Assembly (NCBI GenBank): GCA_019925095.2
Contig: CM034411.1
Span: 12,152,001-12,216,000, forward strand
Origin: Dendrolimus kikuchii
Lineage: Eukaryota > Arthropoda > Insecta > Lepidoptera > Lasiocampidae
Length of the DNA stretch: 64,000 nt
Direction: 5' to 3'
Both the position numbers and the translations under genes were made by a program. This document shows positions 37,230 to 64,000 of this stretch, piece after piece. Below the pieces are notes generated by a model. The model was given only the letters and a program-made list of their open reading frames with translations. It was not told where the DNA came from and ran no database searches. Each line of letters begins with the position of its first letter. Position 1 is the first letter of the stretch.

Positions 37230-38504
37230 TCAGTCACTATCACTGCAGGAAGGTAATTCAGAATCTAAATCATTCGTATCGCTCTCTTCAGAAACTTGGT
37301 AACATTTAGCTCTCACTTCATCCATGATGCTATCAATTTTTATATCTCTCTCAAGCATTTTTATTTCATGACCAGATATATCAGCTAATTTAAGAATGTT
37401 ACACACGTCAAATCGTACCATAGCCATGAATGCTTCATCGTAAGCTTTCAGATTTTTTCCATCGGGTTCTGGTGAGACAATAAGATTACGAGTTACTGTC
37501 TCATCAGACCCTGATGGAACACAAACTTTACCAGACGAATTTATGTGATCTTGAAAAGCTTTTGCAAAAAAATATCCTGGACATAGTTCCTTAATGCAAT
37601 TAGGTATCCTTAGAACAATATGTCCTTGTGCCTCTAATATAATGTCGGCTTTAAATAAGTCCTCGTCAATATCTACGTATTTCTGAGTTAATTCATATAG
37701 ATGGTATTTATTCGCTTCTGGATCATAAGGAATGTTATGCATATCTAGCCACTTCATCAAATCAACTTTTAATGCTCTTAAATTAGGTACTTCGCACACT
37801 CTTTCATTGTGATATTTAGATTTATCATAAACAAATACAGTGGGTGTATTAAAATCTTTTGCCAGATCAGTGACATAACCCTGAAATGAAGTTTCGTCAA
37901 ATTTTTCAACCTTTCTCCAAGTGTAGACACTATTATTAATTATAGTGTAAATCCAGCAGCTTTGTTTAACACTTGGAAATAGCTCATTTAAACGCGTGCT
38001 CTGTTCTATATCGTAACAATTTCCAAGAAAATCGTAAGCTATTTCACATATATTAACTATATTCCTGTGTTCTTTTCTGTAAGAAATTATTTTATTTAAG
38101 TATTCATACCTTTCGAATGTAACCAACGGTCTTTCGAATACGACAAGGCGTTTCTTATTTACGCTAAGCCATACAAAACCCATCTCGATGATAATATTTC
38201 GAAATTGGCCGATATCAATATGTTTTGGAATTTTTCCATATAACTTCATGAACAGTTCCTTCGTCGAAGGCATTTTGTTATCTAAATAAAACGATGTTAA
38301 GGTTTCAAAAATCACAGAACGTCGAATAGTCTGGTTAGAAGAGTTAATAGTTACATCATCAGAATTCCATATTTCTTCCAGAAATTGCGGATGAAGTCCA
38401 GTGTATTGATGCGCTCGTTCAATGAATGTACTATTATCATTTACCAGATGGTATTTTATTTTTCTTATAATTTTCTCCATTATTCGCGTCTTCTCAGATT
38501 TCAT
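37230..38504 (-). CDS. gene A1: DDE_3 transposase-derived protein, triad lost
   Basis: Product 424 aa from ATG 38504 (MKSEKTRIMEKIIR), chosen because A2 starts the same way (MKSKTTRIM) and the upstream codons are not shared. Residues 1-50 look like a helix-turn-helix end (HQYTGLHPQFLEEIW). Then SFYLDNKMPSTKELF (71-85), IEMGFVW (106-112), NKIISYRKEHRNIV (137-150), NICEIAYDF where the first catalytic Asp should be (C153), VFVYDKSKYHNE with the middle Asp kept (D227), MKWLDMHNIPYD, and GHIVLRIPNCIKELCPGYFF where transposases have an NPIE motif; the Glu is Tyr (Y311). An acidic, Ser and Asp-rich tail ends the protein. A is the subfamily closest to active DDE_3 transposases in motif spacing. No terminal inverted repeats seen. 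Function unknown, likely non-catalytic. Confidence 0.85.
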   Translation of the reverse strand: MKSEKTRIMEKIIRKIKYHLVNDNSTFIERAHQYTGLHPQFLEEIWNSDDVTINSSNQTIRRSVIFETLTSFYLDNKMPSTKELFMKLYGKIPKHIDIGQFRNIIIEMGFVWLSVNKKRLVVFERPLVTFERYEYLNKIISYRKEHRNIVNICEIAYDFLGNCYDIEQSTRLNELFPSVKQSCWIYTIINNSVYTWRKVEKFDETSFQGYVTDLAKDFNTPTVFVYDKSKYHNERVCEVPNLRALKVDLMKWLDMHNIPYDPEANKYHLYELTQKYVDIDEDLFKADIILEAQGHIVLRIPNCIKELCPGYFFAKAFQDHINSSGKVCVPSGSDETVTRNLIVSPEPDGKNLKAYDEAFMAMVRFDVCNILKLADISGHEIKMLERDIKIDSIMDEVRAKCYQVSEESDTNDLDSELPSCSDSD

Positions 38505-38519
38505 TTTTGCACGAAAATC

Positions 38520-38720
38520 ACAATGATCACTATATAACTGTACTGAATGGTTAGTCAACAAGATGTCTGCCTTGAGAAAGAGTACAATCAACTGCGTTAT
38601 AAGTCGTCACAGACACGCGACAGCTGAGCCACGAATGGACGAATGGCACGTCACGACACGATGCGGCGCGCCGTTACCCCGCGCACCCTTCCCCCGCACA
38701 CTCTGCATTCCGGTCTCCAA
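38520..38720 (-). promoter_or_regulatory. putative promoter of gene A1
   Basis: Reading on the minus strand, a CpG-rich block (about 38640-38710) precedes CCATTCAGTACAG; the initiator-like TCAGT is at 38542-38546, about 40 nt before the ATG. Gene A2 has TCAGT in the equivalent place. Confidence 0.45.
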
Positions 38721-38839
38721 GGTCACAAGTACCCAGCTCGGCGTCGGACATTTTATAGTTGTAAAAATGTTCGAAGCTATGCGACCATTTTTGTTACTAA
38801 AACTTATAAACAGATAAGTACACATATAAACATTTAGCA

Positions 38840-39667
38840 AGTGTTATGAAAGCAAGAAAGTTTTTGCTTGACGACGTATAGACTCACCGTACTTACAAAA
38901 TTCTTGAAAGTAAAAAATTAAAATAAAATCGGACAAGTGGCAGTATGCGAACAATTAAGGGGTTTCAAAGATATAACAAACATTCACTGTTTTCGTCATT
39001 TAGCTACGGAATCACAAAACAGTATTTAATCAAAAATATCCTATATCACAAAAATAATTAACGGTTATTCTTTATTATGTATATACTATGCACAAAAGTG
39101 TTACTTATATATAATACTATAAAATATTGGTAGTGAAGAAAGGCGAGCTTAACCCTAAGTCCAGCAAACCTATGCGTCTAGCGAGAGAAAAGCAAGAGGC
39201 AGGCTTGAATATATTAAAACATTTTAAAAATAAAAACAATAACACATAAATAATTATATAGCATACGTAAATTATTTTAGAATATATGGTACTGTTCAAA
39301 TTGTTGTTTTCAAATTTGTAAAGTATATTTGATTTGATATTTTTTAGAATTTTCACCCCATAGTTTAAAAGTCAAAGTTTACAATTTTCACAACCTTAGG
39401 AATTAGTATCTAGCAACCTAGTGACTCCTATAAAAAATCACGGAAGTCTGTTTCTTATAGGATGATATGGGAGAAATTATGTAAAAAGAGAAATAAACAT
39501 AGTGACTCTAAGTACATGATTATTATTAAGTTATAACAGAATTATATATATTTTTATAATTATAATTTAATATTTATTTCGTAGGAAAATTCACGATACC
39601 GTCCTATTTGAAATAGACTGCAATGAACATTATTTTGATTTGTTAGCCTAATTATGTTGTTAACAAA
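38840..39667. other. non-coding
   Basis: Near 38.97-39.02 kb the text ATTCACTGTTTTCGTCATTT resembles 61.95-61.98 kb, so an unnamed repeat is shared. No gene seen. Confidence 0.4.
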
Positions 39668-39875
39668 AGTCTTTCTAGCCATTCGGCCTCCGCCAGGTCC
39701 CGATCGAAGGGGAAGGCCCAAAAAAAGGCTGGCTTAATGTTGTGAAAGACGACGTGCATAGGTCTCAAAACAAAGGATACTGAAGACCACGCGAAACGGT
39801 GAAGGTAAAGTAGGAAATCTGACCCTGCGCGTCGAAGCGAACGCTCCGAACGCAACCGGGGCTTAACGCTAGGAT
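39668..39875 (+). pseudogene. RTE-like 3' fragment
   Basis: TCTAGCCATTCGGCCTCCGCC, GGTCCCGATCGAAGGGGAAGG, then GCAACCGGGGCTTAACGCTAG: the same 3' end as 36.3-36.5 kb with shifts and stops. Confidence 0.65.
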
Positions 39876-40557
39876 TATTTTGATTGTTTTGGTTAGTTAA
39901 TTGACTGTGACACATAAAGGCAGACGGACAGACATAACGAAAATACAAGGGTTCAATTTTTGCCAAAACAGCCGTTGACCCCAAAAAATGATTGTGATGT
40001 ACACAGACAGACGGACATGGCGGATGTACAAGCTTGTCACTTTAGCCAACAACGCCATAGAACTCTGAAAATAAGTTAAACAAACTTAGTGAGATATCGC
40101 TCACAGTCATTGATTTTGAATGGCGATTCGGGCTAAGTCATCCAAAAAAGCGGGTCAATATTACGGGGACATTTCATCCCCCAACCCATTTGGCCCCTGA
40201 TTTCGTCAAGTCACCCGTTAATGGACTCCGGGGAGAGGTCTCTGACAATTTTAAAAGGGCCCAACGGAACTGCCGAATAAGTTTTGATGGCATTTTTTGG
40301 GAGACGATGGAGGTACGTTGTTTGACTAAGTTTTACGGAATGTATTGGAAATTCGCAACATGGACACAAGCGTCAGTGACATTTGCCTGCCTTCGATTCG
40401 TGCACCCGGCAATTACTAGTCGACAACACGAACAACCCGACATTAAATACATTCCTTGTAACACAATAGGTAATACCAATGAACACAAGTTTCAAATCAT
40501 TACCAATCAGTAGCTCATTATAATTTCAAACCTCATCGCTTGCAACTCCGAAATGTA
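39876..40557. other. no recognised gene
   Basis: A plus frame at 40190-40513 (107 codons) has no recognised motif. It may be partly 3' UTR of B1 read backwards. Confidence 0.4.
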
Positions 40558-41876
40558 TCATACTCTTAACGTATTAAAAATCCTTCGTAGATTGTTAATA
40601 GAAACATTTTCTTTTATTTGCTTCATTACAACACGCAAATTCCTAGCTGCGGTTTGTATGTTATCTACAATCCCTGTCACCGTGAGATCTTCTGAAAGAC
40701 ACCGCTTCTCTTGCACAGCAATAAATTCGTCATACTCTTTCCAAGTCTCCAAAGATGTATTTTCTATAGTATTTATATATTGTTCTGTAACTGTCGAAGC
40801 ATCACATCCATTAAGCTTTAATTTTTCATACATAAGCGTTAATATACCATGGAAGCAGCATGTATTGGATACATTTGGTTTCCATAACAGTGTGTGGCCA
40901 TGCTTTTTTAAAGTTGGCTCTAGATAGTATACATCTTTAGTCAAATGTATGTGTTTCAAAATTAAACTATATAGTTCTGCTCTATGAGCGTCGTCGTTGT
41001 ATAAGACGCCAATTCTTTTCAACCATTTTTGCATAGACTCTTTCCTTGAGTATGGTTTAGGTGTTTTTATTTTAATGATACGCAAGTCGTAATCGAGAAT
41101 TACAACGCTGTTGGTCGGCAGAAACGGTATAAATTCTTTCTGAATTAGTTTTAGAGCTCTGTTTCGACTCAAAATGTTAGTATAACATGGCTTGACCTCT
41201 TTTAATGGAGGGACGGTAATTAATAACTTTTCTAATCTAACTATATGTATAATATTTCTGCCACTCTCTCTGTATTGTCCAAGTTTCTCGAAGTAAAATA
41301 TTCTATCCTTAACCATGTTTGGGTCCTCAGAAATAAAGTTCCTATAACTGTATGAAAAGCGTTCCGTAACAAATCCTTTAGAGGCCAAATCCCTTATCAG
41401 CCTTTTGAAATTATATTGGCGTCTTCTAGCATTTGGTATATTGAAAAGACTTCTCGCATCATATGTAATTGCGTTTGTAGGCAGCAAAGTTTTATATTTT
41501 TCCATGTAATAACGTAACATCAACTGCTGTAAGACACCATAACCCGTAGTTGAATCTGGCTTATCCACATTGATAGAATCAGGAACACTATTTTTTGTGG
41601 TCTTATTAATAGTAAAGAATGGTTTTGAGTTACCGCCATGACTTGCTCCGGTAAATCTTCTTATTTTATTAACTGTGACTAAAGGCACCAAGTCTAACTT
41701 TTTCACTGACGGTATCACAAATTGCATAGCATTGTCAAATTTCGTATTGATAATGTCTTCAGGCTGTTTGTAGATTTTGAGAGCATAATCCTTATATTCT
41801 GCAGGCTTATTTCTACGTTTTTCTATTATCGAATTCTCGCTTGCAAAAGCCAGTAGTTGTTGACTCTTTCCAGAAA
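40558..41876 (-). CDS. gene B1: DDE_3 transposase-derived protein, triad lost
   Basis: A main exon of 439 codons plus two bases. An ATG lies 16 nt upstream (41892), but the sequence there, TGTTTACTTCCAG, reads as a splice acceptor. Aligning with B2 puts the exon start exactly after that CAG in the same phase, so an unseen upstream exon probably gives the real start. Blocks: KKLDLVPLVTVNKIRRFTG, LMLRYYMEKYKTLLPTNAIT, DRIFYFEKLGQYRESGRNII, HIVRLEKLL (first Asp replaced by Val), NSVVILDYDLRII (middle Asp kept), KWLKRIGVLYND, KHGHTLLWKP, then ILTLMYEKLKLNG without the final Glu, and ENTSLETWKEYDEFIAVQEK. It is about as divergent from B2 and B3 as expected for an older duplicate. Function unknown. 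Confidence 0.85.
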
Positions 41877-43879
41877 CTGGAAGTAAACACATTTTTAATC
41901 AATTAAGATGCTATACATGATAAGGAAAATAAAAATTATAGGCCTAAGCATATGTGAACAAAAGCGTCAATTTTTTTTAACTTGCGTGCTTAAACTTCTG
42001 TAATGTACACGTGGTTTGCGTCCCTGTGGTTAATAGTAATGTATCCAATAGAAACTATCCCACATTTATCCTTACTAATTTAATGATTGAATATCGACTA
42101 CTTGTAACGCACTGCGGTGCGATCGGTATCCTATTCTAAGATCGGCTTACTTAAGCCGGCTTCATTTTGAGGGTCTGAGAGTCATTGTATTAATGGTCTA
42201 AGCCTTAAACTGACAAAATTCTATCATTATTAATAGATATATTTCGTTTATATAATCTATAATTCTTGCTAAAAAAATAAAATAGTTAACTATGTCAAAA
42301 TATATCTATGTTGGCTTTAACTAGCTAAGCCCGCTCCCTTGTTCGCAGAGAGGATTTTGGGACCTCATATTCATATTGTCTTCTAAACTCTGTAAGATAT
42401 TGAACATAAATAGAAATTTATGTTAAAGCTCCTCTTTTAATTTAAATTTTTCATTGGAATCCGTCGGGCCGTTTCGGAGTCTATTCGAAACAATCTTTAA
42501 GACAAGCAGTAGTGTGAAATTTGCTAAAGAAAAAGTTTATACGAACAAGGAATGTTGAAAGCAAACATTTTTATTTATTATAAAATGTGTATAAACTTTC
42601 AAAATTAAAATAATAAAATATAATATGCATTCACTTTTGTCGGCATGTAACAATATAAATAAACTACTATATATACAGTCAGAGACAGTATATAATTTAC
42701 AGAGTTGTCTTTGAAGACACTCTTTACAAAACCCCAAATAGCACAAATTAGTAACGTCTTCCTAAGTTGCCATATTCGTAAATATCGCACTTTTACCGCC
42801 ATTTTATTGAAAGCGAAATTTAGACCTAAGTATATATTTTCTAGCAAAAGGTATTTATAACCATTATGCTGTTTTACGACATTCAGTTTTTAATTTAGTA
42901 GGGTCTAATCTAACTAAAACTGTAAGTCTCAAAACAAAATAATACTTCAAAATACTTTTTGTAGCAAAAATATACTTAGGTACAAATATCGCTAACGATT
43001 GAGGCTCGATATATCAATAATTATATTAAGTGGAGGACATTGCGAGCATTTCATTAAAGCGGGGAACAATGTAAGGTTATCTTATAATTTATATGTTAAA
43101 AATACATTAACTAAATTAATAAAATAAACTGTTCATTGTTTACACCCCTACTGCTACTGTCAAACACATGAAACATAAAAGAAAGGCGATGATTATAGAG
43201 TTATTTTTATATAATTTCTAACAAAAAAAACTTCAATAGGTATATTTTTTCTTTAAATAATAAATTATATTCAGTTTTGACCTATTACTACTAACAGGGC
43301 ATAAGCATAAGTATTGCATTCATTCGTTATCTTATCGCATCCAAAAAATAAAAAACTGATAACATGTGTTTCGACAGATTCATGTATAACAAAAATATAT
43401 CTGTCAACCTTAAAGATTTTAAAGTTAACAAATACGATTAATACTTACGATTTTCGTCCGTCATTTGTCCTGTTGTCCGCTACAATTGCATCTACAATAC
43501 AATATAATAATGACATATGCTACTAATTTAATAAACAATTTTAATAGAGCAACCTCAACTCCATGACGCAACTCGCGATAAAATGAACGCCGATACGAAA
43601 TATGGAATACAATGTAGCAGCACAGTGTTTTTTTAAGTACTAAAATAGAACTCGGCTACACTCTGAATACGAATTAGTAGTTATCGGACCACACACATTG
43701 AAGGATTTCGCAGAGGTACAATATGTTCACTGTTCTGTAAACATTCAATCGAAAATATCCCACATCTTTCTTCAGCCGATATTCTTTAAACTACGGATGC
43801 AAAGATTATCACATTCCGATTACGTTGTTGATTATCGTAATATTATATCGGCTGGGCTTTGAGAATATATTTAATACCT
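41877..43879. other. upstream of B1; no other gene seen
   Basis: This stretch should contain the small first exon and promoter of B1, which I could not locate. AT-rich otherwise, without recognised repeats. Confidence 0.35.
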
Positions 43880-44196: not shown

Positions 44197-44208
44197 CTAG
44201 CTCTAATA

Positions 44209-44378: not shown

Positions 44379-44437
44379 CTAGCTCTAATAATTTTATATA
44401 ATATTAAAATAGGTGAAAGGAAAAATAAAAGTAATCA

Positions 44438-46724: not shown

Positions 46725-46909
46725 TGTTCGACCTACGTGATGATACAATGAGAATACCTGGCAGCATAAGAATAATATATTCAAATATTTATTCTACTGT
46801 CTGACGTACAGACAGACATTAGCTTTCTCAATACTACCAAGTAAATACCTAAAATAAAAATGTCTTGCCTTTACTCTGTTATTTAATTATAATATCTTCC
46901 GACACAAAA
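46725..46909 (+). repeat. copia 5' LTR
   Basis: Starts TGTTCGACC and ends GACACAAAA; the same 185 bp are at 51078-51262. Confidence 0.9.
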
Positions 46910-46919
46910 GGTTATGGGC
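46910..46919 (+). promoter_or_regulatory. copia primer binding site
   Basis: GGTTATGGGC directly after the LTR. Drosophila copia uses a cleaved initiator-Met tRNA fragment and has the same GGTTATGGG core. Confidence 0.7.
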
Positions 46920-46923
46920 AAAC

Positions 46924-49407
46924 ATGTCTAATCCACAAGTAAATTCATCCGAAACGAGCGTAACAGGGAACCTCGTACAGAACGCTGCTGCGGGAAGTTT
47001 AATCCCATCCGGAGTGCCACCAATACCAAAGCTGGAAGGGCGCTCTAACTACGCTTCGTGGAGCTTCGGTATGAAGATGTTTTTAATAGACTGCGGTCTA
47101 TGGAACTGCATCGAAGCACCTGAGGATCTAGCAAGACAGAGGTCAGATTTTAATCGTCTCGACGAACAGGCACGTGCAAAAATATGCCTAAGTGTCTCGC
47201 CCCGCATTTACTCTATTGTCAAATCGGGAAGATCTACCCAAGAAACTTGGAGAAAGCTACAAGTCCAGTATGCTGACAAAGGTTTGGATAGAAAGCTGAG
47301 TTTATTGAAGCAACTGTTCAACACTAAACTAACAGGTGACATAGAGACTTATATTAATACCATCAGGGATGTACAGGAGAAGTTACTCGAAATCAGTGCA
47401 CAACTTGAAGACGAATTTATAGGGGTCATAATGCTTGCCGGACTACCCGATGAATACAAGCCCCTTATTATGGCGTTAGAACACTCGGGCGCACGGATCA
47501 CGTCAGACTCAGTGGCCACAATGCTTTTGAAGGAAGACAGGAGAAATAGCAGTACCACAGTCGGCGAGCCGTCTACTAGCGCATTAGTGACACATTCTAC
47601 AGCCAAAGTTCAATGCAAGTTTTGTAATAAATTCGGTCATGTTATATCTAATTGTCGGAAACGTAAACAACAAAACAAAAAACCAAATGTAATTCAAAAT
47701 TCAAAAACAAATATTACAACAGATATAACACTTTCATCTTCTTCATCATTTCACACTCATCCCTCTGGCTCTGAATCTAATAAAGACTCTTGGTTGTTAG
47801 ACTCTGGAGCAACTTCACATATGTGCAATAACAGAAGTTATTTCCAGGATATGTCTTCGCTCTCAAAACCTGTGTACGTTGCCAATAATGATCGCATTAC
47901 GTGTGAAGGCAAAGGTACTGTTAGTCTGCCTCTACCAAACGATCTAAGCACTATTTCCAACGTGCTTTATGTACCAAGCTTAGCATCAAACTTATTATCA
48001 GTTAGCAGTCTGGTAAGTAATAACTATGTTGTTGTGTTTTCACAGCGCGGTGCAACAGTTTTACGTCGTCAAGACTGTAAAGTTTCTGGACACGTCGTGG
48101 GTACAGCCTCTAATTATAATAATTTATATAAGCTTGATGTTCCCTGCCAAGCTAATTTAATAAATAACAATAAACAAGAGGCGTTACTATGGCACCGTCG
48201 ACTTGGTCATTTAAATGCCAAGTCACTGAACATATTAAAAACTAAAAAGGTAGGCATAGAGTTCACTGACAGGTTGAATGAAACCTGCATACCGTGTTTA
48301 AAAGGAAAATTGTCTAGGAGACCTTTCTTAAACTCAAAAAGTATGTCTACAGAGCTACTACAACTAGTTCATTCTGATTTGTGTGGACCTATGAGTACTC
48401 ATTCATGGGGTGGTTCTCTTTACCTCTTAACTTTCACAGACGACTTTAGTCGTAAAACTTTTGGGTATTTATTAAAATCTAAAGCCGAAGTTTGTACAAA
48501 GTTCGTCGAATTTAAACATTTAGTAGAGAATCAAACGGGTCACAAAATCAAAGTTTTACGCACAGACAATGGTCGCGAGTATGTTAACCGTGACATGACT
48601 ACCTTCTTGAAGGAAAATGGAATCGTACATCAGACCACAGTCCCATATACTCCTCAACAGAATGGAGTTTCCGAACGTGCGAATAGGACTATAATTGAGA
48701 AAGCGAGATGTATGCTACAAGGTGCAAGTCTACCTAAAGCTTATTGGGGAGAAGCGGTAAATACGGCTATTTATCTAAAGAACCGTTCGCCTACGCAAGC
48801 CTTAAAGAATAAAATTCCTGAAGAATTGTGGACTGAAACTAAAGTTAACCTTTCTCATTTGAGGGTATTTGGTTGCGAAGCCCACGTTCTCATTCCTAAA
48901 GAAAAACGGTCAAAACTGGAATCGAAAACGCAATCTTGCATTTTCCTAGGCTACTCTACAGAGAGTAAAGGCTACCGTCTTATTGATCCCAATAATCCTA
49001 GACAAATTATTATTTCTAGAGATGTCGTCTTCATTGAGAATAAAATGTATCAACAACCTGAAATCAATGACGTTCCATCCTCTTTACAGCCCACAGACAC
49101 CCTTGTTCCTATTTATCATCCAGTTCAACAAGTTCAACCTACTGCAGAACCTGAAACTTTAGTCTGTGAACAACATAACACAGAACCTGAAGCATCTACT
49201 TCTGCTGAGCCTACATGCAATGATGATATTATAACTCCTGAAACTAATTGCGATATGGTAGAATCTGAGCAAAGAGAACTGTCATCTGAAAGAAGATATC
49301 CTCTTAGAGACAGACGTCCTCCCGAGAGATATCAAGCTAAACTTTATCTTACTTCTGATTCTGAACCGGAAACATATAATGAAGTTTTAAATCATCCGCA
49401 AAAATAA
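46924..49407 (+). CDS. copia gag, protease and integrase part
   Basis: 827 aa from ATG 46924, 14 nt after the LTR. Gag (about residues 35-215) is followed by a zinc knuckle CKFCNKFGHVISNC, protease WLLDSGATSHMC, the GAG-pre-integrase HRRLGHLNAKSL, and integrase with HSDLCGPMS, RTDNGREYVN and NGVSERANRTIIEKARCML, so the D, D and E residues are kept. The C-terminal linker is Pro and Glu-rich. The frame stops at TAA 49405-49407 in CAA AAA TAA CAA TGG, where the same frame then continues into the reverse transcriptase. Confidence 0.9.
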   Translation: MSNPQVNSSETSVTGNLVQNAAAGSLIPSGVPPIPKLEGRSNYASWSFGMKMFLIDCGLWNCIEAPEDLARQRSDFNRLDEQARAKICLSVSPRIYSIVKSGRSTQETWRKLQVQYADKGLDRKLSLLKQLFNTKLTGDIETYINTIRDVQEKLLEISAQLEDEFIGVIMLAGLPDEYKPLIMALEHSGARITSDSVATMLLKEDRRNSSTTVGEPSTSALVTHSTAKVQCKFCNKFGHVISNCRKRKQQNKKPNVIQNSKTNITTDITLSSSSSFHTHPSGSESNKDSWLLDSGATSHMCNNRSYFQDMSSLSKPVYVANNDRITCEGKGTVSLPLPNDLSTISNVLYVPSLASNLLSVSSLVSNNYVVVFSQRGATVLRRQDCKVSGHVVGTASNYNNLYKLDVPCQANLINNNKQEALLWHRRLGHLNAKSLNILKTKKVGIEFTDRLNETCIPCLKGKLSRRPFLNSKSMSTELLQLVHSDLCGPMSTHSWGGSLYLLTFTDDFSRKTFGYLLKSKAEVCTKFVEFKHLVENQTGHKIKVLRTDNGREYVNRDMTTFLKENGIVHQTTVPYTPQQNGVSERANRTIIEKARCMLQGASLPKAYWGEAVNTAIYLKNRSPTQALKNKIPEELWTETKVNLSHLRVFGCEAHVLIPKEKRSKLESKTQSCIFLGYSTESKGYRLIDPNNPRQIIISRDVVFIENKMYQQPEINDVPSSLQPTDTLVPIYHPVQQVQPTAEPETLVCEQHNTEPEASTSAEPTCNDDIITPETNCDMVESEQRELSSERRYPLRDRRPPERYQAKLYLTSDSEPETYNEVLNHPQK
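49405..49407 (+). other. single in-frame TAA in copia pol
   Basis: The stop separates the integrase from the RT in otherwise continuous frame (49408 onward reads QWLEAMNAEYNSL). The base context is UAA-CAA, partly like the plant-virus-type readthrough context but without its third codon. A fresh nonsense mutation is the simpler reading. Confidence 0.7.
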
Positions 49408-51718: not shown

Positions 51719-52975
51719 TCATTCAGAAACATTGCAAGGTAAATCAGAGACTAAATCTTGTACATCGCGAACCTTAGAAACTTCGTGACGTTTAGCTTTC
51801 ACTTGATCCATAATTCTATCAACTTTTATATCTGTATCGAAGATCTTTGTTTCTTGGCCACATATATCCGCAGTCTCAATAATACTTACTGTGTCAGACT
51901 GAATCATAGTAACAAATTTTTCGTCATATACTTGCAACCGTTTTTGATCATATTCTTGTAAAGCAAACTCATTTGGATCAATGCAATGATTATGCACTTT
52001 AATATTATTTCGCATTTTTTCTGTCAAGTAATATCCTGGAGATATATTTTTAATAGAGTTAGGTAGTCTTAAAACAAGATGTCCTTCCGCTATCAATCTC
52101 CTGTCAACTTTAAATAAACTTTCCACAAAATCTGTTTCTGTTTCTTCATTCTGTTTCTTCTGGATTAGTTGTAACAAATGGTATTTAGACGCTTCTTGAT
52201 CGTAAGGTATGTTATGCAACTCAAGCCATTTAATTAAATCAACTTTCAAAGTCTTTAACTTAGGTGGCGCACACACTTTTTCATTGTGATGTACAGACCT
52301 GTCGTAAATAAATACAGTCGGCGTATTGAATTTCTTAGAAAGTTCAATCACGTAGTTTTGGAATGTATTTCTATCAAATTTATCGACCTTTGTCCAATTG
52401 TAAGCGCCACTACGGGTTATAGCGTACATCCAACAAGTTTGTTTTATTAGTGGAAATACTTTACTTAAACAAGAACTTTGTGTCGCATCGTAACAATTAC
52501 CAAGGAAATCGTAAGCTAATTCACATATATTAACAATGTTCTTCTCTTCCTTCCTATAATTGATTATGTTCTTTAAGTAGTTGAACCTCCGGAAAGTAAA
52601 AATAGGTTTGTCGAAGACCACAGTTGTCTCTTTATTTCTAATCCATGCCATGCCCATGTGCTTCAGTATTTCTCGAAACTCTGGGACATCGATATATTTT
52701 GGAATTTTTCCATGGAGATGCATGAATAGTTCTCTCGTCGTCGGCATCTTATAAGCTAAATAAAACGATAATAAGTGATCCAAAATCACAGAAAGCTGAA
52801 CGGGTTCTTCGGGATCGTCAAGCACGTCGTCAGAGCTCCACAGTTCTTCCAGGAACTTCGGATGGAGACCCGTGTACTGGCACATTCGGTTAATAAATAG
52901 GTCTTTATCATTTATTTGATGGTATTTTAATGCTTTTATAATATTTCCCATTATTCGCGTTGTCTTTGATTTCAT
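51719..52975 (-). CDS. gene A2: DDE_3 transposase-derived protein, triad lost
   Basis: Product 418 aa from ATG 52975. Co-linear with A1 throughout: CQYTGLHPKFLEELW (32-46), SFYLAYKMPTTRELF (70-84), NIINYRKEEKNIVNI (136-150) with Cys at the first catalytic position (C151), VFIYDRSVHHNE with the middle Asp (D225), IKWLELHNIPYD, GHLVLRLPNSIKNISPGYYL where Tyr again replaces the Glu (Y315), and RIMDQVKAKRHEVS near the end. Sequence identity to A1 is moderate, yet the open frame and the same substitutions persist, which suggests selection. It shares the initiator placement with A1. Downstream of B2, as A1 is downstream of B1. Function unknown. Confidence 0.85.
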   Translation of the reverse strand: MKSKTTRIMGNIIKALKYHQINDKDLFINRMCQYTGLHPKFLEELWSSDDVLDDPEEPVQLSVILDHLLSFYLAYKMPTTRELFMHLHGKIPKYIDVPEFREILKHMGMAWIRNKETTVVFDKPIFTFRRFNYLKNIINYRKEEKNIVNICELAYDFLGNCYDATQSSCLSKVFPLIKQTCWMYAITRSGAYNWTKVDKFDRNTFQNYVIELSKKFNTPTVFIYDRSVHHNEKVCAPPKLKTLKVDLIKWLELHNIPYDQEASKYHLLQLIQKKQNEETETDFVESLFKVDRRLIAEGHLVLRLPNSIKNISPGYYLTEKMRNNIKVHNHCIDPNEFALQEYDQKRLQVYDEKFVTMIQSDTVSIIETADICGQETKIFDTDIKVDRIMDQVKAKRHEVSKVRDVQDLVSDLPCNVSE

Positions 52976-54586: not shown

Positions 54587-55917
54587 TTATAATGTATCAC
54601 TTCTTGACAGCCTGAGAACTCGCCGCAGGCAGTTTAGGGATACATTTACTTTTAATTCGCTCATTATAAGTCGCAAATTTCTAGCAGCTGTTTGTATGTT
54701 ATCTATAATCTCCATCATCACGAGATCATCTGAAAGACATTGCTGCTCTTGCTTAGCAACAAATTCATCATACTCTTTCCAAGTATCCAAAGGAGTATTC
54801 TCTATAGTATTCACAAATTGTTCTTCAAGTGTCAAAGTATCGCTTCCGTTCAGCTGTAATTTTTCATGTAAAAGCGTTAATATGCCCTGGATACAGCTGA
54901 TTTTTGATATTTTTGGTTTCCACAACACTGTGTGGCCATGTTTTTCTAAAGCTTCCTCAAGACAGTAAATTTGGTTACCCAAATGCCTATGTTTCTTAAT
55001 CAAGTTGTATAGTTCTGCTTTATGAGCGTTATTGTCGTATGATACTCCAATTTTTGTCAACCATATCTTCATAGTCTTTTTCGATGTAAATGTTGATGGT
55101 TTTTTAATTTTAATGCTACGCTGGTCGTAATCGACAATCAAAACGCTGTTGGCTGGCAGAATTGGTATAACATATTTCTTAATTACTTTTCGAAATTCTT
55201 TTCGATTAAATACTTTTTTATAACATTGTTTCAACTCGCTCATTGGGGAGACAGTAATTAATAAATTTTCCAATGCTGTGACAACGTGGACAATATTTCT
55301 ACCACTCTCTCTGTACTCTCTAATTTTCTCGAAGTAAAATATTCTATCTATCACAATTTTTGGGTCTTCAGAAGTAAAGTTTCTGTAAGTGTATGCAAAG
55401 CGTTGTGTAACAAATCCTTTAGCGGACAAATCCTTTATTAGCCTTTTAAAGTTATATTGGCGTCTTCTACTATTTGGTATATTGAAAAGACTCCTCGCGT
55501 CATAGGTAATTGCGTTTGTAGGTAGCAAAGTTTTATATTTTTCCATGTAGTAACGTAACATTATTTGTTGTAAGACACCGTAGCCCGTCGTTGAAACTGG
55601 CTTATTCATATCAATAGAATTAGGAACACAATTTTTGGTAGTCTTATTAAAAATAGAAAACGATTTTGAGCTACCGCTATAAGTTGTACCACTAAATTTC
55701 TTTATTTTATTAACCGTGACCAAAGGCACCAACTCTAACTTTTTCACTGATGGTAATACAAATTTCATGGCACTGTCAAATTTTGTATTAATAATATCTT
55801 CGGGTTGTTTGTAGATTTTGAGCGCATAGTCCTCATATTCTGCAGGCTTATTTCTACGTTTCTTAGTTGTCGATGGTTCGCTCGCATAAGTCAATAGATC
55901 TTGGGTCTTTTCTAGAG
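54587..55917 (-). CDS. gene B2: DDE_3 transposase-derived protein, triad lost
   Basis: A main exon of 443 codons plus two bases, beginning after the acceptor TATTTTATTTCAG. It has no ATG at its start, so a small upstream exon is expected, as in gene C. Blocks: KKRRNKPAEYEDYALKIYKQ, LVPLVTVNKIKKFSG, MLRYYMEKYKTLLPTNAIT, DRIFYFEKIREYRESGRNIV, HVVTALENLLI (first Asp replaced), NSVLIVDYDQRSI (middle Asp kept), KIWLTKIGVSYDN, KHGHTVLWKP, ILTLLHEKLQLNG (no Glu), then ENTPLDTWKEYDEFVAKQEQ, the usual transposase C-terminal helix. The basic KKRRNK near the start could be a nuclear signal. Very close to B3 in its first half. Function unknown. Confidence 0.85.
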
Positions 55918-56607: not shown

Positions 56608-56683
56608 AACCATTGTTTGTCAGATTGCAACTGATTTTTATTAACTACCTACATAGATATTTTATACCAATAAATGACACTAC
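56608..56683 (-). repeat. gypsy-3 3' LTR (76 bp detected)
   Basis: On the minus strand it contains GGTATAAAATATC, then AATAAAAATCAGTTGC. Identical to the other copy by eye. GATGGGAAAGATG just before it could be the polypurine tract. Confidence 0.75.
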
Positions 56684-57022: not shown

Positions 57023-60000
57023 CTAATTAGAACTGAAATAACCCTTAAGTTTATCGCGAGCCTGGAGAGCAGCTTTTCTGGTTTTTGCTTTATTGCTACT
57101 ATAATCTGGTGCATTGTCATCAGAGCTACTTGCATCCATACCAGACTCTGCTCCTTTCTCCGTGTAGTCCTCTTCAGCATCACTATAAAGACTTACACGA
57201 TCTGGACTATTGTTATCACCATCATTCTTCCTGGCATGTGAAGAAGGAGGTAATATTCGCTTTATAATGTGTCGCCTATTACGGCGGAAGCGCTTGCCTG
57301 ACTCGTCAGTAAGAAAATATGAGCGTGGATGTTGCGAAGGTGCTTCCACATACATATGACGCCTGAGTTGGCCGTCTGCCACTACCACGCGATCTCCTCT
57401 ATATAGTTTAGGCAATTCATGTGCATGTTTGTCATAATATTTTTTGCTTTGAATGTGATTATTTATTATTTTGTTATAATCAGTACTGTTATTGCGTTCA
57501 GGTCGCAATTTATTTTCGTGTATTGGAAGACTGGTATTTAGTCTTCTACCCATGAGTAATTGGGAAGGAGAACCGATACCATCTCGAGGAGTTGCCCTAA
57601 AGCTTAATAGTCCAAGATAAAAGTCTGTTCCGCTATCTAAAGATTTCTTTAAGATATTTTTAACAGTCCTTACTGCCCTTTCACTAAGACCATTAGATTG
57701 TGCATACATTGGAGAACTTGTAATGTGTTTGAAAGACCATTTCCTTGCGAAATCTCGAAATTCCTTCGAGAAAAATGCAGGTCCATTGTCCGTTATTAAT
57801 TCTGCAGGAATTCCATGTCTGGCAAATTGATCTTTCATGGCGGTTACCACTGCTTTTGTGCTGATACTTTTTAAAGGACTAACTTCAATAAAATTTGAAA
57901 AATAGTCTACAAGCAACAAAAAGTTCTTTTGCCTTAAAGTGAAAATATCAGAACCCACCTTTCTCCAAGGTAAATCAGGAACCGAATGGCATAACATTGG
58001 TTCTCGTGAAGGTCTGTCAGCATATTTTGCACAAATGTTGCAAGATCGAACTGTATTTTCAACTTGACGCGACATTCCTTTCCAAAACATGACATCTCTT
58101 GCACGTCTCTTACATCGGTCAATTCCTAGGTGACCCTCATGTATTTTTACAAGCATCTCTCCCCTTAATTCTTTTGGAATAAAGACTAAATTATCTTTAA
58201 ACAAAATCCCATCAACATATTCAAAGCCATATCTATATTCCCAATGACATTGTACTTTTTGATTAACATCTTTTTTGTATTTTGGCCATCCGTTTAAAAT
58301 ATATTTTATTAGTATATTACATTCACTATCTTTAGAAGTTGCTTCTTTTACTTTATGTAATTTATTATCGCTGAATTGTACATTGTCTATAAGAAAACAG
58401 GATTGTTGTTCAACTTCTTCTACAACTTTATCATGCATTAAATCTGGAAGTGGAGCTCTAGACAACGAATCTGCTATATACATATATTTTCCTGGTTTAT
58501 AAATGACACTAAAACTGTAACACTGTATTCTTAGCATCATTCTTTGCAAACGAGCAGGAACTGAGTCTAGAGCCTTTTTAAACAATGCTTCCAACGGTTT
58601 GTGGTCGGTTTCGACCACCACGTCCGGCCTGCCATATACATATTGATGGAATCGTTCCATAGCAAAGACAATTGCAAGCAACTCCTTCTCGATTTGTGCA
58701 TATCTAATTTGTGTCTCTGAAAGTGTAAGTGAAGCAAACTCAACAGGGCGACCTGCTTGTAATAATGCCGCACCAAGAGCTTTAGCACTCGCATCTACTG
58801 TAACAACTACCGGTTGATTGGAAGAATATATTGCTAATACTGGGGCATTGCATAGAGCCTCCTTGAGTCTTTCCACAGCGGATTCATGGGTTTTATCCCA
58901 TGTCCACTCAGAACCTTTTTTGAGTAAACATCTAAGCGGCGATGAAAGCTCAGAAAAATTAGGGATAAATTTGGAAAGGTAGTTTACCATTCCCAAAAAT
59001 CTTTCCAAGGATAGCTTATCCTTAGGATTGGGCATTTCTTTAATGGCTCTTAGTTTTTCTTTGTCCACTTGCATGCCATGTTTATTAAAAGTATGACCTA
59101 GATATGTGATTTGCTCAACACAAAACTCACATTTATCTCTATTAAACTTGATACCTACTGCGCGGGCTTTTTCTAGTAGTTTTGTTAATCGTTCATCATG
59201 TTGAGACTTTGACTCGCCCCAAACTATAATGTCATCGACAAAGGAGTCTACGCCGTCCAGACCTTCAAGCAATTGTCGAATTTTTGCATGAAAAATTTCG
59301 CTTGCACAACTTATACCATATGGAAGACGTAAAAATTGGTATCTTCCAAACGGTGTTCCAAAAGTACACAAATCGGCACTTTCGTCATCTAACTCCACCA
59401 TCCAGAATCCAGATCTAGCATCCAGTTTACTGAAATATGTAGCATTGTGCAGCTTAGTAGATATTTCTGTTAATGTAGGTAAAGGGTAATGAGCTCGTTT
59501 TATAACACGATTCAGCGGACGTGGATCTAAGCAAATTCTAAAGCTACCGTCTTTTTTGGCAGGTAAAACTATTGCATTAACCCATTGTGTAGGATGTTCG
59601 ACTTTCCTAATAATTTGCATATTTTCCATGCGATCTAACTCATTTTTTAATTTTTCCCGTACCCCTAATGGAATCTTTCTAACAGGACATATCGAAGGAC
59701 ATGCATTCTTATCAATTATTATTCTATATTTCCCCGGTAATTTACCTATTCCAGTAAATAAATCTTTATAATTATTCATATCAATCAATGTGTATATACG
59801 TTTTACAAAATTCAGCTTTTCACAAGTATCTTTACTTAAAACACTTTGACAATTAGTTGTAGCAATAACAAATTCAATTAAAAACTGTTTATTTTTACTT
59901 GACCAAAACATATCACATTTTCCCATTATTGGAACATAATTTCCACAAAAAGATTGAGCGCGTATGTTAGACTGCTTAATGTCATTAACGGAATAACCTG

Positions 60001-61120
60001 TTTTTATAAATGACTGAAAAGATATCACATTTAAATCAGATCCCGTATCCAGCTTAAATAACTCACTGGCCCCGTTTTTACACGATACTAACATTTCAAA
60101 CCACTTACTGCTACAACCTTGTTTACTGTTCTCTAAAGATGAAACATAGAATAATTCTCCTTCACTGTTTTCATCCTCACATAACTCGTACACGCGCCGC
60201 TCGATTTTATTCGGACACACTTTCTTAAAATGACCTCTAACATTACAAAAAAAACATTTTGCAGTACGAGCCGGACACCGGTTAAAATTATTATAGTGAA
60301 AATCACCACATCCATCACAAAAAACCCGCGAAACATTGTCACGCACACGATTTGACTTTATACCGCTATCCAATCGCTTGTTGTCGCCGCTAGACTCGGT
60401 ACGCGCGCGCCACAGGGCACCGCCACCCCCGCCGGCGCCGGGCGCGCCAGCCGCGCCGAGCGAGCGCCCGCGCCCGCGCCCATGGTCGCCGCGTTGCCCG
60501 CCGTACCCGCCGCGCCTCGCCGTACCGTATACAGCATCGATCGACCCGCTCGACGTACATTCCACTTTAGTGCATTCAATCTGACGACTTTCTTCGTTGG
60601 ACACCTCTTTAGCTTGGCATATTTTTACCGCCTTTTCCAGAGTAAGATCTTCCGCTCGTAGCAATCTATCCCGTACGTTGCTATCTGTGATTCCACAAAC
60701 AATGCGGTCACGTATAAGCCCTTCTTCCAAGTGTTCAAATTCACAATGTTGGCTGAGTAACCTCAAGGCCGTTACATAGTTGTCTATAGTTTCTGCTGAT
60801 TCTTGATTTCGAGTGAAAAAACGAAATCTTGCCATCGTCGTATTCTGTTTGACACAGAAATAACTATTAAATTTTTGTATAAGCAAGTCGATATTGTCTT
60901 GATTTTCAGCTGTGGTGAACTTAAAAGTTGAATATACGTCATATCCATCGGCTCCTATAAGGTTGACCAGCAAGCTTGCCTGCACGTCTTTGTCTTCTTT
61001 ATGAATTCCAGATGCCTTAATGAACACCATGAACTGCTTATGCCATTTGCGCCACGCATCCGCCCGGTTAGCCGGTCCGCCTTCAAGCACCAACTCCGCA
61101 GGAGGCCTTGCGTGTTCCAT
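57023..61120 (-). CDS. gypsy-3 gag-pol polyprotein, coding-intact
   Basis: 1365 aa from ATG 61120 with no stop or shift. Gag capsid-like part (about 20-180), an Arg-Gly stretch (201-240), Cys/His motifs CDGCGDFHYNNFNRC and CFFCNVRGHFKKVC (268-302), protease LDTGSDLNVISF, reverse transcriptase with KLDARSGFWMVEL and catalytic SFVDDIIVWG, RNase H TVDASAKALGAALLQAG, integrase zinc finger (HEGHLGIDRC then CNICAKY), and core with GSDIFTL, ITDNGPAFFSKEF and SNGLSERAVRTVK, so D, D and E are present. The tail is acidic. All activities needed for retrotransposition look intact. Confidence 0.92.
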   Translation of the reverse strand: MEHARPPAELVLEGGPANRADAWRKWHKQFMVFIKASGIHKEDKDVQASLLVNLIGADGYDVYSTFKFTTAENQDNIDLLIQKFNSYFCVKQNTTMARFRFFTRNQESAETIDNYVTALRLLSQHCEFEHLEEGLIRDRIVCGITDSNVRDRLLRAEDLTLEKAVKICQAKEVSNEESRQIECTKVECTSSGSIDAVYGTARRGGYGGQRGDHGRGRGRSLGAAGAPGAGGGGGALWRARTESSGDNKRLDSGIKSNRVRDNVSRVFCDGCGDFHYNNFNRCPARTAKCFFCNVRGHFKKVCPNKIERRVYELCEDENSEGELFYVSSLENSKQGCSSKWFEMLVSCKNGASELFKLDTGSDLNVISFQSFIKTGYSVNDIKQSNIRAQSFCGNYVPIMGKCDMFWSSKNKQFLIEFVIATTNCQSVLSKDTCEKLNFVKRIYTLIDMNNYKDLFTGIGKLPGKYRIIIDKNACPSICPVRKIPLGVREKLKNELDRMENMQIIRKVEHPTQWVNAIVLPAKKDGSFRICLDPRPLNRVIKRAHYPLPTLTEISTKLHNATYFSKLDARSGFWMVELDDESADLCTFGTPFGRYQFLRLPYGISCASEIFHAKIRQLLEGLDGVDSFVDDIIVWGESKSQHDERLTKLLEKARAVGIKFNRDKCEFCVEQITYLGHTFNKHGMQVDKEKLRAIKEMPNPKDKLSLERFLGMVNYLSKFIPNFSELSSPLRCLLKKGSEWTWDKTHESAVERLKEALCNAPVLAIYSSNQPVVVTVDASAKALGAALLQAGRPVEFASLTLSETQIRYAQIEKELLAIVFAMERFHQYVYGRPDVVVETDHKPLEALFKKALDSVPARLQRMMLRIQCYSFSVIYKPGKYMYIADSLSRAPLPDLMHDKVVEEVEQQSCFLIDNVQFSDNKLHKVKEATSKDSECNILIKYILNGWPKYKKDVNQKVQCHWEYRYGFEYVDGILFKDNLVFIPKELRGEMLVKIHEGHLGIDRCKRRARDVMFWKGMSRQVENTVRSCNICAKYADRPSREPMLCHSVPDLPWRKVGSDIFTLRQKNFLLLVDYFSNFIEVSPLKSISTKAVVTAMKDQFARHGIPAELITDNGPAFFSKEFRDFARKWSFKHITSSPMYAQSNGLSERAVRTVKNILKKSLDSGTDFYLGLLSFRATPRDGIGSPSQLLMGRRLNTSLPIHENKLRPERNNSTDYNKIINNHIQSKKYYDKHAHELPKLYRGDRVVVADGQLRRHMYVEAPSQHPRSYFLTDESGKRFRRNRRHIIKRILPPSSHARKNDGDNNSPDRVSLYSDAEEDYTEKGAESGMDASSSDDNAPDYSSNKAKTRKAALQARDKLKGYFSSN
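60385..60520 (-). repeat. GC-rich RGG-coding tract in gypsy-3 gag
   Basis: More than three quarters G or C, in a genome region that is mostly A or T. It encodes GGYGGQRGDHGRGRGRS and a Gly and Ala-rich run. RGG tracts often bind RNA; here it precedes the zinc knuckles. Confidence 0.75.
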
Positions 61121-61236
61121 ATTATTTTTACGTTAAAATCGACGACACACGACTAAACACGTTATTTATTATTCGAATATTACTATTTTGAACAGAATAC
61201 TAATTAAAAATGCGCACCGCTGTCACCATGAAATGA

Positions 61237-61312
61237 AACCATTGTTTGTCAGATTGCAACTGATTTTTATTAACTACCTACATAGATATTTTATACCAAT
61301 AAATGACACTAC
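61237..61312 (-). repeat. gypsy-3 5' LTR (76 bp detected)
   Basis: Matches 56608-56683. A primer-site-like TGGTGACAGCGG follows on the minus strand after 8 nt. Confidence 0.75.
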
Positions 61313-61570
61313 TAATATATAAAGCTGAAGAGTTTGTTTGTTTGCTTGAACGAGCTAATCTCTGGAACTACTGGTCTGATTTGAAAAATTATTTCAGTGT
61401 TAGATAGCCCATTTATCGAGGAAGGCTATAGGCTATATTTGGTATCATCACGCTAAGACCAATAGGAGCGGAGCACCAATGAAGAATGTTTCAAAAAGGG
61501 TTTTTTTTTAACTTACTTTTTTTTTTACTATTCCACGCGGGTGAAGTCGCGGGCAGAAGCTGATTTCATA
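61313..61570 (+). repeat. lepidopteran-type interspersed repeat
   Basis: TAATATATAAAGCTGAAGAG, GTTTGCTTGAACGAGCTAATC to GGTGAAGTCGCGGGCAGAAG. A non-coding family, possibly Helitron-related, abutting gypsy-3. Confidence 0.5.
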
Positions 61571-62099
61571 TTTTTCAACGTCGGCATATGAGTATAATAA
61601 TATTCGATCGGTTTGGAAATTATAAGTTAATTTTATTTCTATCTTGTTCATACGTATAACCACGTCTCGTTTACGCATGAGGAACAGGCCGTGGCGGGTG
61701 GGGGTTCTAATTTTTAAAATTGCTCCGTATTGCATGGTATTGTGTGGCCGTATCTCAGCAACAGCTTACTGCATATTACGATGGCTCTAAATTACTTGAT
61801 GTAGTCGTCACGGCATAGTTGACGAGAATTAACCATGACTGAGCAATTTTAGTTGCCCGTGTAAGAGCACCTTAAAAACGCAACACTAACACACTGTGAA
61901 TACAAATTAGCCAAGTACGTTTCTGGCTACGCAGATTTAAGGGTTCTGCAGAGTTCAACGTTCACTGTCTTCGTCATTTGACTATAGAATAATAAAAATT
62001 ATAGTTAAAAATAAATAATAAAACACGCTTTGATAGCAAACTTAACTAAAAGCTAGAAATATTTTTTTATATGGGGGACATGTATGAATTATTATTTCT
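61571..62099. other. no gene seen
   Basis: A 75-codon minus frame here has no motif. The text near 61.95 kb resembles 38.98 kb. Confidence 0.4.
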
Positions 62100-62345
62100 T
62101 CTTTTATTTTAAGCGTTTAGACAGTTCACGGGCCGCCCACAAATTATGTCACACTGTAATCAAAATATTAAAAAATATTTCCAGCTCTATCTGTATTTTT
62201 AAATGGAAATAAAACTAATTACGGAACTGCTGTTTTAGTTCAATAATTTTTTGAAATAAAATTGCAAAATATGTGATGTCACATTGGGAGGGAGGAGTGT
62301 CACGAAAGTGACAATCGTGACATTCGCGTGACGTAATTTGTAGAT
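62100..62345 (+). repeat. dispersed repeat R4
   Basis: Second copy of the repeat at 9.78-10.2 kb (TTACGGAACTGCTGTTTTAG, TTGCAAAATATGTGATGTCAC, GTCACGAAAGTGAC). It lacks the long G-run. Confidence 0.6.
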
Positions 62346-62695
62346 GGATGGATATTAAGGGGCCTTAATATCTAATTTAAGATGTTAATTAACGACCGGT
62401 TTCTATATCTTACCGACCGTCAATTTGCGTTACTATCGGTTAAAAATTTGACATAAGCTCCATATACAAGTCATGCCAAAATTCAACCGATGGTAAGGCA
62501 ATTGTTACTTCATATTCGCTTCATGCAATTCTTACTTCATATTCGTGTTCAGCGGGAAAAAATACGGCAAAAATCATAGTCTGTGTTGGGACACACACAT
62601 TTTTTTGTAGACCTGTGTAATTGTATCTATACATAAGCATTTACATAAATAGTTGCAATTCTTTCAAAGATCGTCACTTGCAACCTACCGATATA
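62346..62695. other. 3' flank of gene B3
   Basis: No gene. An imperfect internal duplication, TTACTTCATATTCGCTTCAT and TTACTTCATATTCGTGTTC, lies near 62.5 kb. Confidence 0.4.
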
Positions 62696-64000
62696 TCACA
62701 TTCTTGACATATTTAAAATCCTCCGCAGACAGCTTAGAGACATATTTACTTTCAATTTACTCATTACGAGACGTAAATTTCTAGCTGCTGTTTGTATATC
62801 ATCTACAATCTCCATCGTCATGAGATCTTCTGAAAGACACCGCTGCTCTTGCTTAGCAACAAACTCATCATACTCTTTCCAAGTCTCCAAAGGTGTATTC
62901 TCAATAGTATACATAAATTGTTCTTCAAGTGTCAAAGCATCGCATCCGTTCAGCTGTAATTTTTCATGCAAAAGCGTTAGTATACCATGGAAACAGCTGA
63001 GTTTTGATATTTTCGGTTTCCATAAAACTGTGTGGCCATGTTTTCCTAAAGATTCCTCAAGACAGTAAATTTCTTTCCTTAAATGTTTATGTTTCCTGAC
63101 CGATTTGTATAGCTCTGCTTTATGAGCGTGCTTGTGGTATGGTACCCCAATTTTTCTCAACCATATCTTCATAGCCTTCTTCGATGTGAGTGTTGTTGGC
63201 TTTTTTATTTTAATGCTACGCTGGTCGTAATCGAGAATCAAAACGCTGTTAGCAGGCAACATCGGTATAATATCATGCTTAATTGCTTTCCGAACTTCTT
63301 TTCGATTAAATATTTTCTTAAAACATTGCTTCATCTCACTCAATGGAGAGACGGTAATTAATAAATTTTCCAATGCTGTTACAATATGCACAATGTTTCT
63401 ACCACTCTCTCTGTACTCTCTAATTTTCTCGAAGTAAAATATTCTGTCCCTCACGATTTTTGGGTCCTCAGAAATAAAGTTTCTGTAAGTGTATGCAAAG
63501 CGTTGTGTAACAAATCCTTTAGCGGACAAATCCTTTATCAGCCTTTTAAAGTTATATTGGTGTCTTCTACTATTTGGTATATTGAAAAGACTCCTCGCGT
63601 CATAGGTAATTGCGTTTGTAGGTAGCAAAGTTTTATATTTTTCCATGTAGTAACGTAACATTATTTGTTGTAAGACACCGTAGCCCGTCGTTGAAACTGG
63701 CTTATCCACATCAATAGAATTAGAAATACAGTTTTTGGTAGTCTTATTAAAAATAGGAATCGATTTTGAGCTACCGCTATAAGTTGTCCCACTAAATTTC
63801 TTTATTTTATTAACCGTGACCAAAGGCACCAACTCTAACTTTTTCACTGATGGTAACACAAATTTCATGGCATTGTCAAATTTTGTATTAATAATATCTT
63901 CGGGTTGTTTGTAGATTTTTAACGCATAGTCCTCATATTCTGCAGGCTTAATTCTACGTTTTTTAGATGACGAATATTCGCTCGCATGAGTCGATAGATA
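62696..64000 (-). CDS. gene B3: DDE_3 transposase-derived protein, triad lost (runs off window)
   Basis: The frame stays open to the window edge, and the ATG at 63868 is internal: codons beyond it (KPAEYEDYALKIYKQPEDII and ASEYSSSKKRRI) match B2. By comparison with B2 the splice acceptor should lie about 10-20 bases past 64000. Blocks: DRIFYFEKIREYRESGRNIV, HIVTALENLL (first Asp replaced), NSVLILDYDQRSI (middle Asp kept), KIWLRKIGVPY, KHGHTVLWKP, ILTLLHEKLQLNG, ENTPLETWKEYDEFVAKQEQ. The first half is almost identical to B2 at the DNA level, the second half less so. Function unknown. Confidence 0.85.
   Translation of the reverse strand, partial: YLSTHASEYSSSKKRRIKPAEYEDYALKIYKQPEDIINTKFDNAMKFVLPSVKKLELVPLVTVNKIKKFSGTTYSGSSKSIPIFNKTTKNCISNSIDVDKPVSTTGYGVLQQIMLRYYMEKYKTLLPTNAITYDARSLFNIPNSRRHQYNFKRLIKDLSAKGFVTQRFAYTYRNFISEDPKIVRDRIFYFEKIREYRESGRNIVHIVTALENLLITVSPLSEMKQCFKKIFNRKEVRKAIKHDIIPMLPANSVLILDYDQRSIKIKKPTTLTSKKAMKIWLRKIGVPYHKHAHKAELYKSVRKHKHLRKEIYCLEESLGKHGHTVLWKPKISKLSCFHGILTLLHEKLQLNGCDALTLEEQFMYTIENTPLETWKEYDEFVAKQEQRCLSEDLMTMEIVDDIQTAARNLRLVMSKLKVNMSLSCLRRILNMSRM

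Follow-up and report, generated by a model that had tools for sequence, protein, structure and literature searches.

A tandem family of probably cleavage-dead Sailor (DD82E) transposase genes in the moth Dendrolimus kikuchii

In this study, we analysed a family of transposase-like genes in a 64,000-nucleotide stretch of the genome of the moth Dendrolimus kikuchii (GenBank assembly GCA_019925095.2, contig CM034411.1, positions 12,152,001 to 12,216,000 of the forward strand), hereafter the window. Sequence comparison indicates that these genes are probably domesticated transposases of the Sailor (DD82E) superfamily, most likely unable to cleave DNA and kept as DNA-binding host proteins. The evidence consists of the similarity of the whole proteins to Sailor, the replacement of two of the three catalytic residues in every member, and purifying selection on the reading frames.

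Relationship to Sailor and loss of the catalytic residues

Searches of the copies against the window by tblastn (E up to 0.01) located seven family loci, namely six genes with long frames (C, A1, B1, A2, B2 and B3) and one broken B copy (Table 1). This bears out the original prediction, made from the DNA letters alone, that six long-frame genes and one pseudogene form a single family. The minus-strand genes of the array are read in the order B3, B2, A2, B1 and A1; C (plus strand) and the broken B copy (minus strand) lie near 20-25 kb, outside the region of the original prediction (37230..64000). Protein identity is 52% for A1-A2, 84% for B2-B3, 67% for B1-B2, 35-39% for B-C and 23% for A1-C (blastp E 6e-12). 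Three homologues lacking the triad, P0002, P0004 and P0005, were found outside the window, all on short contigs; the nine family proteins compared below are therefore A1, A2, P0004 and P0005 (A), B1, B2, B3 and P0002 (B), and C. No family relatives were found in the viral contigs scanned.

For comparison, a Sailor consensus query retrieved 1,760 proteins. The 120 matches listed all have DDE_3, and 104 of them, those 290-450 amino acids (aa) long, were used to build a Sailor profile. This profile matched A with an hhalign E of 1.6e-33 over 370 columns and B+C with 3.6e-25 over 325 columns, against best values of 0.024 and 0.072, respectively, in 50 controls per branch (49 column-shuffled and one reversed). 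The match spans the first helix-turn-helix and extends into the tail. In hmmsearch the profile gave 58 to 141 bits on all nine family proteins, and the maximum over 900 shuffled sequences was 8.1 bits; the block resemblance first noticed by eye is thus beyond chance. When the 120 listed Sailor proteins were used singly as queries, 119 matched A1, 116 A2, 111 B3, 109 B2, 107 C, 101 B1 and one the broken copy, with no other match to them anywhere in the window.

Pfam scans gave no match to DDE_3 (PF13358) at E up to 10 in any of the nine proteins, and nothing relevant came from PDB sequence searches in which B2, A1 and the family profile served as queries; the family thus lies a long way from the canonical DDE_3 profile. 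Three Sailors scanned for comparison all matched DDE_3. Weak matches to DUF507 (Pfam), histone H2B (PDB, best E 0.26) and FeoB (PDB, E 0.45) were set aside. The Sailor profile does find the Sleeping Beauty transposase 5cr4 in the PDB at E 1.8e-6 and SETMAR at 0.02, which ties the family by homology only to the RNase H fold, and the family proteins would accordingly be expected to have this fold. The earlier term DDE_3-transposase-like was right in kind, as the profile comparisons support a transposase origin, but it does not hold as a Pfam assignment, and the Sailor superfamily is the more precise source.

The insertion between the second Asp and the Glu that is specific to Sailor can be aligned in A1, P0005, B2 and C. 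The K..WL....I.F/Y block, originally taken for a general Tc1/IS630 feature, actually falls within this insertion. At the same place of the insertion, five of the nine proteins (A1, A2, B2, P0002 and P0004; residues 293-315 in B2) match HeH/LEM or Ish1 (SAP-like) domains of Pfam weakly, with scores below the cut-off, and no such match was seen in the three Sailors scanned. The insertion of the family may be a small DNA-binding domain.

In the alignment with the family, 74 Sailors keep the first catalytic Asp in 73 cases, the second Asp in 73 and the Glu in all 74. The nine family proteins all keep the second Asp and none keeps either of the other two residues, in agreement with the original prediction that only the middle Asp is retained. 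At the first position Cys is found in A1, A2 and P0004, Asn in P0005, Val in B1-B3 and P0002, and Glu in C; the Cys, Val and Glu of the window genes had been read correctly. At the last position are Tyr in A1, A2 and P0004, Phe in P0005, Gln in B2, His in B3, B1 and P0002, and Ser in C, the residues of B and C being dependent on an alignment that is uncertain there. The predicted Tyr of A stood, but hydrophobic residues were not found at this position in B and C. Since the first Asp and the last Glu are lost in both A and B/C, it is most likely that none of these proteins can cut DNA, as judged from their sequences.

Could the B/C proteins still be active nucleases with displaced acids? Three acids are invariant in all five B/C proteins: a Glu four residues past the position of the first Asp, the middle Asp, and a Glu eight residues past the position of the catalytic Glu (E212, D258 and E347 in B2). 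However, many further Glu and Asp positions are equally invariant, eight residues on a helix place the last acid about two turns off, and equivalents are not seen in the A proteins. In RNase H-fold enzymes the catalytic positions are set by the fold, which also counts against displacement. We consider retained nuclease activity of this kind very improbable.

Selection and the distribution of constraint

The reading frames evolve under purifying selection. Maximum-likelihood omega (dN/dS, the ratio of nonsynonymous to synonymous substitution rates) was 0.31 for A1-A2, 0.38 for B1-B2, 0.41 for B1-B3, 0.35 for B2-B3 and 0.49 for C-B2, with likelihood-ratio statistics against omega = 1 of 54.9, 37.9, 30.9, 25.4 and 16.9, respectively. 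The dS values by NG86 ranged from 0.25 (B2-B3) to 1.01 (C-B2). The two comparisons proposed as a check of selection, A1-A2 and B2-B3, are thus both non-neutral, as expected in the original prediction. Within A1/A2 and within B1-B3 the state of the first catalytic position is common and the Glu is lost, so that purifying selection there postdates the loss of cutting; this cannot be said for C-B2.

To locate the constraint, the identity in the Glu motif was subtracted from that in the winged helix for each protein pair. In 2,701 Sailor pairs the mean difference was -0.25 and the maximum 0.04. The difference was +0.05 to +0.16 within A and +0.12 to +0.26 within B, in six of six pairs each. Identity within A was 0.42-0.48 in the Glu motif and 0.47-0.62 in the winged helix; within B no long segment is better conserved than the winged helix (0.76-0.97). 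A uniform shift of constraint, first counted on nine chosen A/B pairs, was given up after all pairs had been counted, because only 12 of 16 show it and the four B-C pairs are opposite. The idea in the original prediction that the family was perhaps kept for its DNA-binding part therefore agrees with the strong shift within B and the slight one within A but not with the comparison of B and C. Identity of the winged helix between B and C is only 0.18-0.23, which means that C has a different target or that the alignment breaks down in this part.

Gene structure, flanking DNA and competing explanations

The first coding exon of B1 comprises 16 bases and agrees with the deposited model P0003. A predicted first exon of C, 605 bp upstream of its main exon, has the same GTAAGT donor and phase-1 junction. 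A pattern made from the B exon gave four hits with at most five mismatches on both strands of the window, B1 included, and among the other three only the C hit has both a GTAAG donor and a position just upstream of a family member on the same strand. The intron appears to be common to B1 and C. P0001 implies a like first exon for B3 (MTNEN), past the window end. A1 and A2 are single coding exons, both starting with MKS. The window encodes most of the hypothetical protein K1T71_013344 of D. kikuchii; this deposited model (P0003) combines the B1 start with the second half of A1 (37230-43464), which may be an annotation error or reflect a read-through transcript.

The copies resemble one another at the DNA level over their coding exons, with an overhang of 12 to about 36 bases in some, and alignable similarity stops no more than about 40 bases from the exon. 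Seven more matches lie beyond the exons, two of them downstream of C and five between the A/B blocks; those tested are dispersed repeats with more copies in the window, except for an identical 76-base pair flanking a gypsy element. Between B2 and B3, 64 of 99 positions differ around and after the stop codon (100 alignment columns) as against 132 of 1,298 in the exons. The edge of similarity is abrupt, the exons being about 10% different and the DNA after the stop unalignable, and simple duplication does not explain it. Gene conversion confined to the B2/B3 exon is one possibility.

Inverted repeats were searched for in 1500 bp on each side of the five genes other than B3 and of two A+B blocks, and scores were compared with 60 shuffles. 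Under strict scoring the best arms were 11-20 nt long, AT-rich and dissimilar among genes, and their scores were reached in 1 to 37 of 60 shuffles. Under looser scoring, scores were reached in 2 to 53 of 60. No terminal inverted repeats clearly above chance surround the family genes in these searches, in which the longer, looser arms of a separate repeat listing were not assessed singly; such repeats, in combination with neutral dN/dS, had been named in the original prediction as a sign of transposons in decay.

These results bear on the explanation that the copies are decaying Sailor transposons without host function, whose frames are open by accident and because the copies are recent. The array does sit among retrotransposons, and one B copy is broken. 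Omega is, however, well below 1 on divergences that followed the triad loss. A neutral simulation, with substitutions only, left 3, 0 and 0 stop-free frames per 1000, against the frames that are open here at dS 0.25-0.96. In addition, clear inverted repeats are lacking, and the copies are alike in their exons and elsewhere only through dispersed repeats. Simple decay is strongly disfavoured.

Several observations nevertheless weigh against domestication as DNA-binding proteins. Omega of 0.3-0.5 indicates a far weaker constraint than the values of 0.037 and 0.038 reported for domesticated lepidopteran PIF genes (PMC9710019); since omega is clearly above these LPLG1 and LPLG2 values, the constraint on the moth family is real but moderate. 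Between B and C the constraint difference is -0.18 to -0.24 in four of four pairs, the winged helix being the less conserved part, as in Sailors. The shift within A is slight (+0.05 in four of six pairs) and is due mostly to decay of the Glu motif, and all these pair counts are not probabilities, as the pairs share ancestry. The lowest shuffle counts for inverted repeats were 1 of 60 for A1 and 2 of 60 for A2 under strict scoring (4 of 60 for B2), and 2 of 60 for the A2+B2 block under looser scoring (7 of 60 for B2). No first exon of B2 was recognisable between B2 and B3 with the B-exon pattern. The invariant Glu eight residues past the aligned catalytic Glu in B and C is a possible displaced acid. 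AlphaFold models, built from shallow family alignments of 4 and 5 sequences, were poor (predicted local distance difference test scores, pLDDT, 43.7 and 44.7), and Foldseek on these models (pLDDT 44-45) gave no match at E 0.001, its lists not being used.

We still favour domestication, for which the following course is plausible. The ancestral protein would have begun with a pair of helix-turn-helix units, of which the second was a winged helix, followed by an RNase H-like catalytic domain carrying the insertion typical of Sailor, and by a C-terminal tail. A and B/C, separate lineages for a long time, both lost the first Asp and the last Glu, and their frames remained open under purifying selection across several duplications. 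The present proteins may contact DNA by their helix-turn-helix part, with the inactive catalytic domain serving as a scaffold for pairing. They may act as site-specific regulators or chromatin proteins, like CENP-B and the TIGD genes, or as repressors bound to the ends of Sailor; C, with the most divergent winged helix, would have other targets.

A narrower explanation is that the genes are specific anti-transposon repressors, whose dead transposase attaches to Sailor ends or forms pairs with active transposase, blocking it in this way. A changing set of targets would then account for the moderate omega, the presence of several paralogues and the divergence of the winged helix in C. The retention of the DNA-binding part with a degraded core, the presence of several diverged paralogues and the low identity of the winged helix between B and C (18-23%) fit this explanation, and Sailors are present in Lepidoptera (Zerene, Helicoverpa, Parnassius, Pieris and Maniola among the matches listed). 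On the other hand, no Sailor element was found in the 64-kb window, and within B no long part evolves more slowly than the winged helix, which is unlike an arms race there. We regard a specific repressor role as possible but unlikely.

Whether one transposase was captured, as the original prediction supposed, or two depends on the tree. In the joint tree A groups with B+C (support 99), which favours a single capture. In trees of each subfamily alone, A stands beside Acanthoscelides P0111 (91) and B/C falls in a clade with Ixodes and Mercenaria (92), that is, in different Sailor clades; these support labels were read after re-rooting. The joint-tree value of 99 is possibly due to long-branch attraction. 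P0004 is nested beside A2 (100), so the duplication of A1 and A2 predates the split from the source of P0004, and B1-B3 group apart from P0002 (93). A more speculative scheme is that A and B/C were taken from different Sailor elements, were both disarmed and are now a repeated B-then-A pair whose products jointly form a cleavage-dead DNA-binding complex. They would then be the first known case of host genes derived from Sailor. We consider this scheme as a whole rather doubtful.

The array is interrupted by long terminal repeat (LTR) retrotransposons identified by their Pfam domains. As the 76-base repeats that flank the Ty3/gypsy-type element between B2 and B3 are identical, this insertion is probably recent, and it may have split B2 from its first exon.

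Table 1. Positions in the window of the family loci and of neighbouring elements
Feature	Position	Strand	Evidence and remarks
Gene C, predicted 5' coding exon (MTEEI, phase-1 donor GTAAGT)	18954..18969	+	B exon 1 pattern, 4 mismatches; in-frame splice to 19575; prediction without RNA confirmation
Gene C, main exon (Glu-Asp-Ser at triad positions)	19575..20917	+	tblastn/blastp against B copies (tblastn match 19574-20917); Sailor profile 71 bits
Dispersed repeat just downstream of C	20925-21180		Six more copies near 1.3, 3.5, 4.5, 8.3, 11.5 and 54.0 kb, 77-92% identical
Broken B-type copy (three-frame matches with stops)	23809..24772	-	tblastn
Gypsy-type LTR retrotransposon	25068-27716	+	Pfam domains
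BEL/Pao-type LTR retrotransposon	27829-33531	-	Pfam domains
Gene A1, single coding exon (424 aa, start MKSEKT, C153/D227/Y311 at triad)	37230..38504	-	tblastn; Sailor profile 95 bits
Gene B1, main exon (Val-Asp-His at triad)	40558..41876	-	tblastn; Sailor profile 58 bits
Gene B1, short first coding exon (MTDEN)	43449..43464	-	1572-bp intron to main exon; matches start of deposited gene model P0003
Copia-type LTR retrotransposon, two adjoining frames	46858-50889	+	Pfam domains
Gene A2, single coding exon (418 aa)	51719..52975	-	tblastn; Sailor profile 73 bits
Gene B2, main exon	54587..55917	-	tblastn; Sailor profile 80 bits
Two identical 76-base direct repeats flanking the Ty3/gypsy element	56608-56683 and 61237-61312		Resemble very short LTRs
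Ty3/gypsy-type element between B2 and B3, uninterrupted frame	57023-61132	-	Pfam domains
Gene B3, main exon, running past window end	62696..64000	-	tblastn; Sailor profile 71 bits

Comparison with known transposase-derived genes

Transposase-derived host genes are already known from several superfamilies. No literature on Sailor-derived host genes was found, in searches that did not reach most subscription journals. The present array combines two disarmed lineages, paralogues of differing age and a broken copy, all adjoining, and so offers a direct view of which transposase parts retain a use when the enzyme no longer cuts. That constraint has moved to the winged helix within A and within B, but not between B and C, is a concrete and testable pattern.

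Sailor (DD82E) is a superfamily of IS630-Tc1-mariner transposons, with the consensus motifs I/VVYLDET, VIIMDNA and HCELNPIEL and a D-to-E spacing of 78-111 (PMC8533490). The moth family resembles Sailor in the order of the blocks, the winged helix before the core, the long D-to-E spacing (by hand count 83 residues in A1 and 80 in B2), the insertion between the second Asp and the Glu, and the protein length of 418-453 aa. It differs from Sailor in that all nine proteins are without the catalytic first Asp and Glu, and in that clear terminal inverted repeats, which are 18 bp or more in Sailor, are lacking, in searches that did not extend to the TATA target duplications of the superfamily. Further differences are the predicted 5' intron of B1 and C and the conservation of the Glu motif, which does not exceed that of the winged helix within A or within B.

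The vertebrate genes derived from pogo, CENPB, JRK, TIGD2-7 and POGK, are also transposase-derived, have kept the DNA-binding part and are under purifying selection, and in several of them the DDE triad is altered or unrecognisable (PMC7386202). They differ from the moth genes in belonging to another superfamily, in being vertebrate and mostly independent domestications, and in their Ka/Ks of 0.055-0.207 in the available rows of that paper, which is below the values of the moth family. LPLG1, LPLG2 and LPM2 of Lepidoptera are described as derived from PIF/Harbinger transposases and without terminal inverted repeats or target-site duplications, one of them having a neighbouring co-domesticated gene (PMC9710019). 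In contrast to the moth array, these PIF/Harbinger genes are single copy, their transposase dN/dS is about 0.04, and the neighbouring gene encodes a MADF protein, not another copy of the transposase.

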